Assembly: GCF_000429525.1 (NCBI RefSeq)
Contig: NZ_AUCA01000029.1
Location: 1-47,969, forward strand
DNA from: Alicyclobacillus contaminans DSM 17975
GTDB lineage: Bacteria > Bacillota > Bacilli > Alicyclobacillales > Alicyclobacillaceae
Reading direction: 5' to 3'
Length of the DNA: 47,969 nucleotides
The position numbers and the translations under genes were made by a program. The notes beneath the pieces were generated by a model. It was not told the origin of the DNA and ran no database searches. It was given only the letters and a program-made list of their open reading frames with translations. Positions 8,025 to 47,969 of this stretch are shown one piece after another. Every line of letters begins with the position of its first letter. Positions within the stretch are counted from its first letter, which is position 1.

Positions 8025-9985
8025 CCTTGCAACCTCCCCAGTGCCGATTCGGTATGAATCACTTCATCGACCGGAATGTAATAGTCGGTGTCGTACTCAA
8101 AGGACCTCCGGAACAGGCAGTACGCAATGCCGATACCCGCGATGACGTCCATCGGCACCACGCCAAACGTCAGTCCCAGGCCGAGTACAAAGAACCACAG
8201 CGACAGGATGAACGGACGTCCGGAATTCTTCGGCATATGAATGGGCTTGAGCTCGTCCTTCGCCGGCAGGAAGTCCGCCTTGCTCAGCTCGCCCTGTTTT
8301 GCCAGCCACCATGCGTCGCGCCCTTGGATGGTCGGAATGGTGGCGAAGTTATAGTGCGGCGCAGGCGACGGCAGCGACCACTCCAGCGTGCGGCCATCCC
8401 ACGGATCGCCGGTCAAATCCCGTTCGCCGTACTTGATGCTGTAGATGATCTGCCAAACCATGAACACGAAGCCAATGCCCATCAGATACGCGCCGATGGT
8501 CGAAATGAAGTTTGGCACCGTCCAACCAAGGCCGGACGGATAGGTGTAGATGCGGCGCGTCATCCCCATGAAGCCGAGCGCGTACTGAGGCAGGAAACAG
8601 ACGTAAAAGCCGATGTTGAAGAACCAGAACGCCCACCGACCCAACCGCTCGTTGAGCAGGAAGCCAAACATCTTCGGCCACCAGTAGTACATTCCGGCCA
8701 GCATGCCGAACACGGTGCCGCCAATCAACACCTGGTGGAAGTGCGCAATCAAGAAATAGCTGTTGTGATACTGGTAGTCCGCCGGAGCCACCGCCAGCAT
8801 CACGCCCGTGGCGCCGCCGATGGCGAAGCACGGAATGAACGCAATGGCCCACATCATCGGCAGACTCATGCGAATCCGGCCGCGGTACATGGTGAACAGC
8901 CAGTTGAACACCTTGACCCCCGTCGGAATGGCAATCACCATCGTGGCGATGGCGAAGAACGTGTTGACATCCGCGCCGGAGCCCATCGTGAAGAAGTGAT
9001 GAACCCAGGTCAGGAAACCGACGATGCTGATGGCCATCAGCGCAAACACCATCGATCCGTACCCAAACGTCGCCTTCTTCGAGAACGTCGAAATCACTTC
9101 GGAGAAGATGCCGAACGCGGGCAGAATCACGATGTACACCTCGGGGTGACCCCAAATCCAGAACAGGTTAATGAACATCATAGGATCGCCGCCGTGCAGA
9201 ATCGTGAAGAAATGCGCACCGAGCGCACGGTCCAGCAGCAGCAGCGCCAACGCCACGGTCAATGCCGGGAAAGCGAACAAAATCAGAATGCAGGCGGCCA
9301 ATACCGACCAGGTGAACAGCGGCATCCGCCACAGCGTCATTCCCGGCGCGCGCATCTTCAGGATGGTCACCAAGAAGTTGATGCCGGTCGCGATACTCCC
9401 GATACCGGAGATGGACAGCGCCAACAGATAGTAGTTTTCGCCCGGCCCATTGCTGAAGCCAAGCTCCGACAGCGGCGGATAGCTGGTCCACCCAGCATCC
9501 GGCGAACCGCCAATCACGAACGAGATGTTCAACAACAGAGCGCCCAGGAAGAACATCCAAAAGCTAATCGCGTTCAGATACGGATATGCGACGTCGCGCG
9601 CGCCGATTTGCAGCGGCACAGCGATGTTGAACATCGCGAAGATGAACGGCATGGCCATGAACAGAATCATGATGGTGCCATGCGTCGTAAAGATCTCATC
9701 GTAGTGTTCCGCGTCCAGAAACGTCATGTTCGGCAGCGCCAGTTGCGTGCGCATCAACTCCGCGTCGACACCGCCGCGGAACAGCATGAGCAGCGCCGCA
9801 ATCAAATACATAATGCCAATCTTCTTATGGTCCACGGTCGTCAGCCACTCACGCCACAGCCAGCCCCACTTCCGGAACTTCGTGAGCGCAAAGACGATGG
9901 CGACGGAGACCAGGACAATCATCACGTCAGAGCCCAGAATCATGGGTTCCGTGATAAAAATTCCCCAATGCGGAATTGGATTCAC
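8021..9985 (-). CDS. qoxB: Quinol oxidase subunit I (QoxB), catalytic heme-copper core
   Basis: This membrane subunit carries low-spin heme A and the heme a3-CuB centre that reduces oxygen to water and pumps protons. The 654-residue protein aligns end to end with Bacillus QoxB. Ligand motifs are visible: FTTHGTIMILFMA (low-spin heme His), WGHPEVYIVILPAFG (CuB His and the cross-linked Tyr), WVHHFFTMG (two CuB His) and AHFHQVLIGG (heme a3 and low-spin heme His). The residue after the HFH ligands is Gln; E. coli CyoB has Asn there and Bacillus QoxB has Tyr. The start is GTG at 9985 after AGAGGGGG. It sits between qoxA and qoxC in one operon. Confidence 0.95.
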   Translation of the reverse strand: MNPIPHWGIFITEPMILGSDVMIVLVSVAIVFALTKFRKWGWLWREWLTTVDHKKIGIMYLIAALLMLFRGGVDAELMRTQLALPNMTFLDAEHYDEIFTTHGTIMILFMAMPFIFAMFNIAVPLQIGARDVAYPYLNAISFWMFFLGALLLNISFVIGGSPDAGWTSYPPLSELGFSNGPGENYYLLALSISGIGSIATGINFLVTILKMRAPGMTLWRMPLFTWSVLAACILILFAFPALTVALALLLLDRALGAHFFTILHGGDPMMFINLFWIWGHPEVYIVILPAFGIFSEVISTFSKKATFGYGSMVFALMAISIVGFLTWVHHFFTMGSGADVNTFFAIATMVIAIPTGVKVFNWLFTMYRGRIRMSLPMMWAIAFIPCFAIGGATGVMLAVAPADYQYHNSYFLIAHFHQVLIGGTVFGMLAGMYYWWPKMFGFLLNERLGRWAFWFFNIGFYVCFLPQYALGFMGMTRRIYTYPSGLGWTVPNFISTIGAYLMGIGFVFMVWQIIYSIKYGERDLTGDPWDGRTLEWSLPSPAPHYNFATIPTIQGRDAWWLAKQGELSKADFLPAKDELKPIHMPKNSGRPFILSLWFFVLGLGLTFGVVPMDVIAGIGIAYCLFRRSFEYDTDYYIPVDEVIHTESALGRLQG

Positions 9986-31397: not shown

Positions 31398-31434
31398 CAT
31401 AAAGAGGGCCGCCCGCGGTGATACGGGCAGCCCT
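31398..31434 (-). terminator. Terminator of the spore coat genes
   Basis: AGGGCTGCCCG pairs with CGGGCGGCCCT (one G-U pair) on the minus strand and is followed by CTTTAT. It lies 45 bases past the stop of the second coat gene. Confidence 0.8.
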
Positions 31435-31478
31435 GTGGACAAAGATAGGTTCTGTTCTGTGGACAATCCGTCGCTTCA

Positions 31479-31850
31479 TCACATCGTCGTTGCATTTGTG
31501 GAAAACGGAAACTGCGTGGCGTATTTCTGAAATTGTTGCTGAGCCTGCTGAATCTTTTGCGGCGTTTCGGCTTCGAGCTTGTACCAGCCTTTTTGAAACA
31601 TGACATTGTAAGCGTCTCGCGCCGCCTGGTGGCTCTCGTTGAGAATGGTCATGATCTGACGGTGCAGGGCGTCGTGGCTGGCTTCGCGCGCCGCCGTATT
31701 AAAGCTGTCGGTCAGATACTTTTCGGTCGCCAACACATCATTCAGTCGATCCCGGTCGTTCATTTGCGGTCCCTTGACCTTGGGTTCGTTGGCAGGTTTC
31801 GGATTCTGAATCACCCGTGCCTGGGCGTTGTTTCCATTTTGTGCTTGCAC
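31479..31850 (-). CDS. CotF-family spore coat protein
   Basis: The 123-residue protein has a disordered Asn/Gln/Lys/Pro-rich N-terminus of about 38 residues followed by a CotF-type helical domain. The domain includes MNDRDRLNDVLATEKYLTDS, DALHRQIMTILNESHQAARD and YNVMFQKGWYKLEAET. CotF proteins are small components of the endospore coat, which supports a spore-forming host. The GTG start at 31850 follows GAGAGGAGGGG. The longer ORF up to 32174 runs antiparallel to nothing else but overlaps the upstream coat gene in another frame, so it is rejected. It is transcribed with the next gene upstream, 14 bases away. Confidence 0.87.
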   Translation of the reverse strand: MQAQNGNNAQARVIQNPKPANEPKVKGPQMNDRDRLNDVLATEKYLTDSFNTAAREASHDALHRQIMTILNESHQAARDAYNVMFQKGWYKLEAETPQKIQQAQQQFQKYATQFPFSTNATTM

Positions 31851-31864
31851 GAAGGCCCCTCCTC

Positions 31865-32155
31865 TCACTGCATCGCCGCCGTCTGCGGTTGTTGGTTGAC
31901 AGCTGTGGGCTGACACTGCTGCAGCAGGAGGTTGTAATGACGTTGGTGCAGCCGGCCGATTCTGTCCAAACATGCACGCACGTCCGGATCGGAACACTCC
32001 TGTGCGTAATGAGCGCATTTCTTCATCGCAATCAATTCCCACGACATGGCATCCTTCAGATAACTCAGATCTTTTGCGGTGATCACGTGAGGCGGCGTTT
32101 GCATCAGCGGCTGTGCCGCCTGCGTTGCCCCCGACGACTGTGTTTGCCCTTGCAT
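31865..32155 (-). CDS. Small CotF-like spore coat protein
   Basis: The 96-residue protein has a Gln/Ser/Thr-rich N-terminus and a compact helical segment, ITAKDLSYLKDAMSWELIAM followed by KKCAHYAQECSDPDVRACLD, ending in a Gln-rich tail. The DLSYLKDAMSWELIAMKKC pattern is that of the short coat proteins often paired with a full CotF gene. The three cysteines may cross-link in the coat (inference). ATG 32155 follows GGAAAGGAGGG. It precedes the larger CotF gene in a two-gene operon. Confidence 0.8.
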   Translation of the reverse strand: MQGQTQSSGATQAAQPLMQTPPHVITAKDLSYLKDAMSWELIAMKKCAHYAQECSDPDVRACLDRIGRLHQRHYNLLLQQCQPTAVNQQPQTAAMQ

Positions 32156-32240
32156 TGCGCTCCCTCCTTTCCAAAGCATACTTAGCTTGCCTGTTCCCCG
32201 TTTCAATTATCCCCTTCAGGGGAGGTCTGCGATTGGAGAC

Positions 32241-32464
32241 TTATTCACAAACTCATCCACATCTCCTGTGCAAAACTGTGGATATGTGCGTAACTCTGTG
32301 TATAACTGTGTGGCTTACCCACATTCCATCCCCAACTCCTCGGCCTTCTGTGCGCAAAAACATCGTCCCAAGCGCTCCACTCAACCAATCTCCCTGTGGA
32401 CAACTTATCCACAACACGAAAAGCAGGCGGGTCCCGCCATAGGGCGGGCTCCGCCTGTGGATAC
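32241..32464. promoter_or_regulatory. DnaA-box cluster in intergenic DNA
   Basis: Three 9-mers match TTATNCACA perfectly: TTATTCACA (32241-32249, plus), TTATACACA (32297-32305, minus) and TTATCCACA (32405-32413, plus). Six more differ from the consensus at one position: 32253-32261, 32277-32285 (minus), 32285-32293 (minus), 32315-32323, 32395-32403 (minus) and 32456-32464 (minus). Nine boxes in 224 bases is far above chance. No replication gene is near. Bacillus chromosomes carry such clusters away from oriC, where they bind DnaA and restrain initiation; I infer a similar role. Confidence 0.7.
32424..32457 (-). terminator. Hairpin after the aldo/keto reductase gene
   Basis: CAGGCGG and CCGCCTG enclose a second stem, CCCGCC-ATAG-GGCGGG, with a two-base internal loop. 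On the minus strand it is followed by CTTTTCG, making it a likely terminator of the gene ending at 32475. It lies within the DnaA-box cluster. Confidence 0.7.
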
Positions 32465-32474
32465 GCTGTATGCT

Positions 32475-33377
32475 TCATTGATGCTGTTCATATCGCTGAG
32501 GCTTCAACAGTGACGTCAACGCGGCCACTTCGTCCTGGTGCAGAGGACCATCCCAGTGAGCTTGCAGAATTTCCGTCCACTGCTCCCGTGTGCGCGCACC
32601 GGGGATGGCCACCGCCACTGCCGCGTGGTGCAGGCTGTAGCGCAGCGCCAGCGATGCCAGGTGATCTACACCCCCCGCCACTTCCGCGAGGCGCGCGCGC
32701 AGCGTTCGCAATTCCGCCGCCGAATAGTCGAGGAATCCTGCATCGTCGGTCCGGCCGCGAGCGGTCAGCCAGCCCCTGCCGAGCGATCCCCGCGCAATCA
32801 CGGAAATCCCGGCCGCCAGCACGTGGTCCAGCACGTCCTCCTCCGGACGTCTGTCCAAAATCCCGTACTGCGTCATCAGCGTCGCGATGCTCGACCGCTG
32901 CGCGTACTCGCGGATCACGTTTGGCCGAATCGACGAGATGCCGTACGCGCGAATGTACCCTGTGGTCTTCAACTGCTCAAACGCGTCGATGATGTCGTCC
33001 ATCTCATCATCCAACGTTCCGCCGTGCAGTTGGTATAAATCAATGTAATCGGTCTTCAGCCTTCTCAGGCTGTCCTCCACCGCCTGCAGGATGTACGCTT
33101 TCGACGGCCCCCAGTACCAGCCCGGCTTCCCTGGCTCCCATCGGTTTCCGACCTTCGTGGCAATGATCACCTCGTGACGGCGCCCCTTGAGCGCTTCGCC
33201 GAGCCACATTTCATTCGTCCCCTGGCCGTACAGATCCGCGGTATCAAAGAAGTTCACGCCGGCGTCCAGCGCCAGATGCACCAGTTCGGCCGCCGTCTGC
33301 GCATCCGGAAATGACATGCAGCCAAGCCCCAACGGATGAACCCACAACTGCGTGCTTCCCAACCGCCGCTGCTCCAT
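32475..33377 (-). CDS. Aldo/keto reductase
   Basis: This NAD(P)H-dependent oxidoreductase of the (alpha/beta)8-barrel AKR superfamily has 300 residues. The catalytic tetrad can be placed: Asp and Tyr in VNFFDTADLYGQGTNE, Lys in VIIATKVG and His in YIDLYQLHGG. The C-terminal VAVAIPGARTREQW is the coenzyme-phosphate loop. ATG 33377 follows GGCGGAGGG; the ORF extension upstream would run into thiE. It starts 28 bases after the thiE stop on the same strand and may be the fifth gene of the thiamine operon. A thiamine-related role is not shown. Substrate unknown. Confidence 0.88.
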   Translation of the reverse strand: MEQRRLGSTQLWVHPLGLGCMSFPDAQTAAELVHLALDAGVNFFDTADLYGQGTNEMWLGEALKGRRHEVIIATKVGNRWEPGKPGWYWGPSKAYILQAVEDSLRRLKTDYIDLYQLHGGTLDDEMDDIIDAFEQLKTTGYIRAYGISSIRPNVIREYAQRSSIATLMTQYGILDRRPEEDVLDHVLAAGISVIARGSLGRGWLTARGRTDDAGFLDYSAAELRTLRARLAEVAGGVDHLASLALRYSLHHAAVAVAIPGARTREQWTEILQAHWDGPLHQDEVAALTSLLKPQRYEQHQ

Positions 33378-33405
33378 GTGTGCATCCCTCCGCCACCGTT
33401 TGGCT

Positions 33406-34059
33406 TCAGTATATCGGAGCTGCGGCTCGCACAACACCACACAAATGGGAGGCTGCACGACGAGGGTCTTCCGCCAGCATCACCGCGGACACCACGGCCA
33501 CGCCGCGCGCACCCGCACGCACCACATCGGCGGCGTTGTCGGCCTGGATGCCGCCGATGGCGACCACGGGAATCTGCACCGCCCGCGCGATATCCCGCAG
33601 CACGTCCATGCCGCAAACTTCCGCGTCGTCTTTCGATGTCGTCGGAAACACCGCGCCCACACCCAGGTAATCCGCGCCATCCCGCTCGGCTTGCAGAGCT
33701 TCCTTGAGCGATCCGGCCGAAACGCCGATCCACCGATCCCCCATCAGGCGCCGCGCGTCCAGGCAGGGGATGTCCGACTGCCCTATGTGGACGCCGTCCG
33801 CGTCCGTGACCAGGGCGATGTCCACGCGGTCGTTCACGAAATAAAGTGCCCCCGCCTCCCGCGTGATGGCGCGCACGGCATGCCCCAGTTCCACAAACCG
33901 GCGGCCATCCTCCTGTTTGCGGCGCAGCTGCACCGCGGTGGCACCGCCCGCGACCGCTTCCCGGACCGCGCGAAGCAGGCGCTCCGTGTCATTGCCTTCG
34001 TCGGTGACCACGTACAGCGCCAGGCGTGTCTGGAGTTCCCGCCACCGCTCCCGCGTCAT
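33406..34059 (-). CDS. thiE: Thiamine-phosphate synthase ThiE
   Basis: ThiE joins HMP-pyrophosphate and HET-phosphate to thiamine phosphate. The 217-residue TIM-barrel protein has LALYVVTDEG at the first strand, AVQLRRKQ (diphosphate contacts), FVNDRVDIALVTDADGVHIG, GADYLGVGAVFPTTSKDD and the C-terminal phosphate loops VVAIGGIQ and GVAVVSAVM. ATG 34059 is nine bases after GGAGGGG, which lies inside the thiM end; a TTG six bases earlier is too close. It is the last biosynthetic gene of the TPP-controlled operon. Confidence 0.93.
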   Translation of the reverse strand: MTRERWRELQTRLALYVVTDEGNDTERLLRAVREAVAGGATAVQLRRKQEDGRRFVELGHAVRAITREAGALYFVNDRVDIALVTDADGVHIGQSDIPCLDARRLMGDRWIGVSAGSLKEALQAERDGADYLGVGAVFPTTSKDDAEVCGMDVLRDIARAVQIPVVAIGGIQADNAADVVRAGARGVAVVSAVMLAEDPRRAASHLCGVVRAAAPIY

Positions 34060-47417: not shown

Positions 47418-47969
47418 CTAGAGACTCGCGTTCACCCCTTTCATGCGGTAGCTGTCACCGCTGAATGTGAATACGGACACGTGGTGCAATAGGCGGTCCA
47501 GCGTGGCACTGGCCAGTGAGAGGTTCGGGAAGAGCGCTCCCCACTCCTCAAACGGCCGGTTGCTTGTCACAATCAGGCTCTGGCGCTCGTAGGCGTTCGA
47601 AACCAGCTGGAAGAGGTGGTTTCCGGCAGTGTCGTCCATCGGTAGGTAGCCGAGTTCGTCGACGACGATGAGATCGAGCTTTCCCAGAGCTCGTAGTTTC
47701 TGCTTTACAGTACCGTCCGCCATCGCTGCGTAGAGGTTGTCAATCAAATCCTGTGCCGTCGTGAACAGAACATCCTTGCCCTGTACCGCGGCCTTGTAGG
47801 CGAGCGCCATCGCAATGTGCGTTTTACCCAGACCTGGTGGACCAAGCAGCACGACGTTCTCATGGTTCTCAACGAACCTCAGGGTCTCCAGTTCGAGAAT
47901 CTCGCGTTTTGGAACACTGGGCTGAAATGCGAAGTCGAACTCAGACAATGTCTTGTGCCCAGGGATTCT
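47418..47969 (-). CDS. istB: IS21 helper ATPase IstB (partial at the right edge)
   Basis: The C-terminal 183 codons of an IstB AAA+ ATPase are present. The frame is open to the last base of the window, so the N-terminus is missing only because the sequence ends. Walker A is GPPGLGKTH, Walker B LIVVDELGYLPMD, followed by SLIVTSNRPFEEWG and TLDRLLHHVSVFTFSGDSYR. The leftmost visible TTG (47948) is an internal codon and not a start. It is clearly diverged from the intact IstB at 1295-2074. The partner istA would lie to the right, outside the window. Confidence 0.93.
   Translation of the reverse strand, partial: RIPGHKTLSEFDFAFQPSVPKREILELETLRFVENHENVVLLGPPGLGKTHIAMALAYKAAVQGKDVLFTTAQDLIDNLYAAMADGTVKQKLRALGKLDLIVVDELGYLPMDDTAGNHLFQLVSNAYERQSLIVTSNRPFEEWGALFPNLSLASATLDRLLHHVSVFTFSGDSYRMKGVNASL

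Follow-up and report, generated by a model that had tools for sequence, protein, structure and literature searches.

In Bacillus subtilis, the regions most strongly bound by DnaA outside oriC lie upstream of ywcI/vpr, trmE, ywlC, sda/yqeG and yydA and downstream of gcp and ydiF, as given in the parts of PMC4447404 used here; Table 1 of that paper assigns 4–11 sites to each of the six strong regions. According to the sections of the review PMC5295017 drawn upon here, B. subtilis lacking the six extra-origin clusters initiates replication early, and this is partly relieved by a single cluster put back at various places, although the same review also voices doubt about these clusters. DnaA is in addition a known transcription factor in this organism (sda, ywlC, vpr and others; PMC4447404).

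The window analysed in this work is the whole 47,969-base contig C28 of the Alicyclobacillus contaminans draft genome (3,272,318 bases in 111 contigs). As in the B. subtilis clusters, several DnaA boxes are found in it on both strands of a short non-coding region away from dnaA, and in similar number. Ten boxes within one mismatch of the DnaA box TTATNCACA were located in this region, three of them perfect (32241+, 32297−, 32405+) and seven with one mismatch (32253+, 32267−, 32277−, 32285−, 32315+, 32395−, 32456−). A preliminary description of this DNA had counted nine; its three perfect boxes were right, whereas the one-mismatch boxes number seven and not six. The coordinates of the features are collected in Table 1.

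Table 1. Features of the A. contaminans DnaA-box cluster and its surroundings (window positions unless another locus is named)
Feature	Position	Strand	Basis or remark
DnaA-box cluster, 3 perfect + 7 one-mismatch TTATNCACA	32241..32464	both strands	box scan, shuffles, genome rank
Conserved core array, 83 bases, 7 boxes	32241..32323	-	orientation towards coat operon: - + + + + - -
Back-to-back box pair, 10 bases apart, TGTGGACAA-C-TTATCCACA on +	32395..32413		box scan
Outermost one-mismatch box	32456..32464	-	shares two bases with outer arm of reductase-side hairpin
G+C-rich inverted repeat followed by short T run, likely intrinsic terminator of aldo/keto reductase gene	32422..32457	-	consensus matches only
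Coat operon gene 1, 96 aa, no Pfam or NCBIfam match	31868..32155 (ATG at 32155)	-	ORF and family search
Coat operon gene 2, Coat_F domain protein (PF07875)	31479..31763	-	Pfam; start set at MNDRDRLN methionine, true start may be further upstream
Aldo/keto reductase gene (PF00248), ends just outside cluster	32475..33458	-	Pfam; GTG start mechanical, true start probably further downstream
A. contaminans tsaD cluster	L118 (G000:C12:64900-65033)		other family loci: L117, L119, L120, L127-L153

The cluster occupies a 319-base gap (32156–32474) with the 3' end of the reductase gene on one side and, on the other, the start of a two-gene coat operon on the same strand. These flanks had been named as a spore coat operon and an aldo/keto reductase gene, and the Pfam matches of Table 1 agree with both names. 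The hairpin on the reductase side probably serves the reductase gene as terminator. A scan of positions 31700–33000 against Rfam gave no match up to an E value of 1. Small ORFs across the boxes (the main ones of 109, 108, 77 and 54 aa) were judged spurious because they traverse the repeated boxes. A minor box group is present at the downstream end of the coat operon (31434–31505) and consists of two TTGTCCACA boxes 24 bases apart plus one TTTTCCACA; unlike this end, the downstream coat-operon end of the A. pomorum locus (L002) showed no boxes in the box scan.

Dinucleotide shuffles of the 319-base gap yielded 0.23 boxes on average and never more than 5, so that none of 2000 reached 10. Perfect TTATNCACA boxes amount to 54 in the 3,272,318 bases of the genome: 8 lie in two groups flanking dnaA, 3 at the coat cluster and 43 elsewhere without any group of three, and about 0.0001 triplets would be expected from these 43. 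Outside oriC, the coat cluster is the only group of at least three perfect boxes in the whole genome. When boxes with up to one mismatch were counted, the richest 300 bases contained 10 at the coat cluster, 11 at oriC and a maximum of 2 in a background made of 20 stretches of the same genome (393,428 bases, 12% of it). Packing far above background, which is expected of the B. subtilis type of extra-oriC cluster, was found here, for the one-mismatch boxes against this 12% sample. The preliminary description had proposed ranking box density along the genome, and the locus indeed ranks next to oriC, over the whole genome for perfect boxes and over the 12% sample for one-mismatch boxes. It is improbable that the boxes arose by chance or from base composition, or that they serve an unrelated regulator. 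Single one-mismatch boxes are common in the A. contaminans genome and DnaA binding at this locus is a prediction, but the shuffles, the genome rank and the kept spacing described below argue against chance, and the boxes at oriC of A. contaminans or of its congener have the same motif and include four of the seven variants with one mismatch (TCATCCACA, TTTTGCACA, ATATCCACA and TTGTCCACA).

The origin of the same genome was found on another contig, C40, which encodes RecF, DnaN, DnaA, Jag and MnmE. Its groups of perfect boxes, at 8031–8124 and 9651–9947 (one of five boxes, the other of three), flank dnaA and are located between dnaA and dnaN and upstream of dnaA, in the bipartite layout of the B. 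subtilis oriC (PMC5295017, parts used here). Since dnaA, dnaN and recF are on C40 together with box groups of their own, the coat cluster lies outside oriC. This confirms the earlier statement that it does not look like oriC; the accompanying statement that no dnaA, dnaN, rep or par gene is near was also correct for the 26 window proteins scanned with Pfam, which were drawn from a list of 43 non-overlapping ORFs, some of them spurious. Weak Bac_DnaA side matches were given by two IstB-type ATPases at the window ends. Pieces of an IS21-type transposase and IstB are present near both ends (462–2074 and 47418–47948) and perhaps explain the contig breaks there.

Compared with its own oriC, the coat cluster has the same box consensus and shares one-mismatch variants with it, but it has neither an adjoining dnaA or dnaN nor an AT-rich unwinding element. 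The best 40 bases at the cluster reach 62% A+T (65% in A. pomorum), in contrast to 78–80% between dnaA and dnaN. The DnaA-trio motif was also searched for. No trio run was present at the coat cluster; one was found in the dnaA–dnaN region of A. pomorum and none in that of A. contaminans, so this feature does not decide, because the A. contaminans dnaA–dnaN region itself is without it. A former or additional origin of replication, or what is left of the origin of an integrated plasmid, would account for a box number near that of oriC, and the weakness of the trio test leaves this reading some room; we nevertheless regard it as highly improbable, given the low A+T content at both loci, the lack of rep or par among the 26 scanned proteins and the gene order, which runs collinear with the congener on the side of the reductase and thi genes. 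At an origin an adjoining dnaA, dnaN or rep gene would be expected, and the cluster has none beside it. Two weak matches to plasmid records were obtained, both inside the reductase gene. As to nearness to oriC, a trait of the B. subtilis type of cluster, the relatives examined give no uniform picture: the distance between dnaA and odhA, which lies about 10 kb from the cluster in the window, differs among their genomes, and the position of the coat gene relative to dnaA varies as well (in G024, for example, the coat gene is at 3.93 Mb and dnaA at 2.49 Mb).

For the analysis of conservation, the locus was compared with that of A. pomorum DSM 14955 (G001); two species of the genus were in the sample, so that conservation is read from one comparison. 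Gene order on the A. pomorum contig C9 largely follows that of the window, but inverted, and the window segment 23221–31288 (about 8 kb beyond the coat operon) has no clear counterpart in that contig. The gene for the 96-aa protein precedes the Coat_F gene in both species alike. Upstream of the A. pomorum coat operon there are 12 boxes, 3 of them perfect, and a VanY gene (PF02557) lies between the reductase gene and the cluster. The possibility that cluster and coat operon had together been relocated to different surroundings was rejected on the reductase side, where the A. pomorum reductase gene is in place with VanY in between.

Six core boxes match one to one between the two species, with the orientation − + + + − − towards the coat operon and start-to-start steps of 18, 12/13, 8, 24 and 12 bases, as measured on the unaligned sequences. 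Within the 24-base step A. contaminans carries an additional box, and A. pomorum has one more at the coat end. A back-to-back pair with the same orientation and 10-base step is present upstream of the core in both, at 80 bases from the first core box in A. contaminans and at 165 in A. pomorum. In the aligned core, 47 of the 53 columns that belong to a box in both species are identical, versus 7 of the 25 columns in no box (Fisher P 1.5e-7), a contrast that is flattered because the boxes drive the alignment; the columns between the boxes look random. Conservation in close relatives, which the preliminary description had proposed to check and which is to be expected of an extra-oriC cluster, was thus found in the one congener, where six boxes keep their order, orientation and spacing.

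The kept spacing would be equally compatible with a DnaA complex whose role is more specific than passive titration. A cluster that actively altered the state of DnaA, by ATP hydrolysis as datA does or by the nucleotide exchange on DnaA exerted by DARS, both in Escherichia coli, would explain why six boxes have a fixed order, orientation and spacing across two species. We consider this quite improbable: steps of 9 and 12 bases recur in the tsaD cluster described below as well, so that the geometry by itself may be due to no more than cooperative binding, and in B. subtilis no regulator of DnaA-ATP conversion has been identified according to the sections of the review used here (PMC5295017). 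The coat cluster resembles datA in that DnaA boxes are grouped in non-coding DNA away from oriC and could reduce initiation. For datA, IHF is required and DnaA-ATP hydrolysis is promoted (PMC5295017, same sections); the comparison made here covers box grouping and place relative to oriC.

A further question is whether the cluster controls the coat operon, since the preliminary description had suggested that the boxes may regulate the adjacent spore genes. In that case DnaA bound to the cluster would couple late spore gene expression to the amount of DnaA or to its nucleotide state. DnaA acts in this way at the B. subtilis sda promoter, where DnaA boxes likewise lie near a sporulation-related gene. 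In both species the cluster is upstream of the coat operon, and it stays there despite the VanY gene that separates it from the reductase gene in A. pomorum. In the latter, a fair candidate for a sporulation-type promoter was found 62 bases before the start codon, and 25 of 300 shuffles of the last 150 bases were as good as this best match. A CANACTA-like −10 element, as in the sporulation-sigma consensus, recurs upstream of the coat genes of several relatives (read by eye), and the same shuffle test in three of their coat loci gave 108/300 (L004), 0/300 (L006) and 13/300 (L010). Gene control is, moreover, an established role of DnaA in B. subtilis (PMC4447404, parts used here). Against this, no sigma-70-like promoter was found for the coat operon of A. 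contaminans, and its best sporulation-type match was no better than shuffles, 175 of 300 of which did as well. From the nearest box to the coat start codon there are 94 bases in A. contaminans versus 202 in A. pomorum, and this varying distance weakens the case for a coat-gene switch. Boxes held at a kept distance near a promoter, as in a site of the sda type, were hence not found, and no cluster is present within the 1500-base flanks of yqeG, the gene at the sda locus, in the two Alicyclobacillus species. The same coat gene occurs in 19 other family genomes without a comparable array, and a promoter seems dispensable for sites of this kind, to judge from the tsaD cluster, which lies behind the 3' end of a gene. 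DnaA control over the coat operon is therefore unlikely, and less likely than a DnaA sink; the suggestion that the boxes regulate the spore genes found no support in the box distances or in the A. contaminans promoter search. Distinctly unlikely, too, is a broader reading in which a genus-specific DnaA nucleoprotein site of fixed geometry at the coat operon changes DnaA activity (in a datA- or DARS-like manner, in a Bacillota) or reports the replication state to late sporulation genes.

The distribution of the array was followed in the coat loci of the family. The first coat gene, that is the gene for the 96-aa protein, has relatives at an E value of 0.001 or better in 21 of the 41 family genomes, some of the matches being weak. 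Within the 700 bases upstream of it, the richest 300 bases contain 10 boxes in each of the two Alicyclobacillus species. No comparable array was present in the 21 other coat loci (19 family genomes): 20 of them have 0 or 1 box, and a weak second match in G026 has 3. In a scan of 64 coat loci, including named relatives of other families, no other comparable cluster appeared, the best locus outside the genus scoring 5 (L051) versus 13. The coat-operon cluster is thus a genus-level feature on the present sampling. The 20 leading B. subtilis regions given in PMC4447404 likewise include no position beside a Coat_F operon. The A. contaminans cluster is therefore a known kind of site at a new, so far genus-specific, position, and it differs from the B. 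subtilis clusters in being known from its sequence, with binding and effect predicted.

The gcp (tsaD) cluster of B. subtilis itself has a counterpart in A. contaminans. A DnaA-box cluster just 3' of tsaD was found in 33 of the 41 family genomes by two criteria: at least three boxes within 300 bases downstream (23 of 31 genomes), or two perfect boxes lying no more than 300 bases from where the tsaD match ends (all 10 of the other genomes, with positions compared by hand). The eight genomes missing it are G017 (2 boxes), G018, G019, G031, G034, G036, G037 and G040; among these, G031 has 1 box and a perfect pair about 0.8 kb away, and in G037 only 105 bases of contig are available. The cluster comprises 6 boxes in about 110 bases in A. 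contaminans and 3 boxes in A. pomorum, and the recurrent 9- and 12-base box steps are frequent among the tsaD clusters of the family. In the complete genome G004 it lies between the 3' ends of tsaD and of an ABC ATPase gene (two ABC_tran domains plus ABC_tran_Xtn), which is the same layout as that of B. subtilis gcp/ydiF, YdiF being presumably an ATPase of this ABC_tran/ABC_tran_Xtn type. In Alicyclobacillus, by contrast, the neighbouring gene looks cysteine-synthase-like, as judged by eye on its translation. The idea that the coat cluster replaces a lost tsaD cluster was rejected, the latter being present in both species.

Other positions were also surveyed. In both Alicyclobacillus species, no box cluster was found within about 1500 bases of the Sua5/YwlC gene. 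A. pomorum has a further group of three perfect boxes (G001:C10, L069:6629-6731), which adjoins a gene for an EamA transporter and is some 1.6 kb away from serS; the closest EamA homologue in A. contaminans, whose orthology is unsure because the identity is 49%, showed no such group next to it. In G004, G007 and G009 (L101:3101-3220, L104:2958-3063 and L105:2974-3079) a box cluster is located inside an ORF for a HAD-type phosphatase (Pfam on L105 only), adjoining a RuBisCO-like gene (MtnW-like, by eye) about 120–330 kb from dnaA. More extra-oriC clusters were observed in the family beside further genes, at L106:2973-3025 (APH-family), L108:2866-2993, L111:2829-3035 (folE), L112:2857-2949 (proC) and L114:2918-3184. 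G024 has two box groups 1.3 Mb apart (L073:4430-4482 and L076:3645-3697) with partly duplicated neighbouring ORFs, perhaps a duplicated element.

Extra-oriC clusters are thus widespread in the family genomes; one position, that at tsaD, is probably ancestral, and others differ between genera. The presence of a gcp/ydiF counterpart in 33 of the 41 genomes indicates that such clusters belong to the lineage and that the coat cluster is a genus-level addition. A site of this type, if present here, had been expected to be new for this lineage. This holds for the coat-operon position, which was found in this genus only, and not for the clusters as such, which are normal in the family and of which the tsaD one is common with B. 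subtilis (PMC4447404, parts used here).

We therefore favour, with a probability of about 0.6, the reading of this stretch as an extra-oriC DnaA-box cluster of the B. subtilis kind, a DnaA-binding and titrating sink that would delay or steady initiation. The likeness to the B. subtilis clusters already seen in the preliminary description stands, in view of the rank next to oriC and the boxes in the congener; from the B. subtilis precedent we infer its function, that is DnaA binding, and titration rather than local gene control. All ten boxes would be bound by DnaA, and the box steps of 8, 10 and 12 bases make cooperative binding probable on the core array of 83 bases. The cluster would then act as a sink, keeping DnaA from oriC and lowering free DnaA, and this sink would delay or steady replication initiation, as has been reported for the six B. 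subtilis clusters together.

Ten boxes in an arrangement kept in the congener point to a site that probably soaks up DnaA and helps to time chromosome replication. The results suggest that extra-oriC DnaA-box clusters are a lasting part of genome design in the family, with the tsaD (gcp) position common to B. subtilis and others, such as the coat cluster, found in single genera. This combination of one shared position and several single-genus positions makes it testable whether replication timing is set by the location of the sinks or only by their total number.
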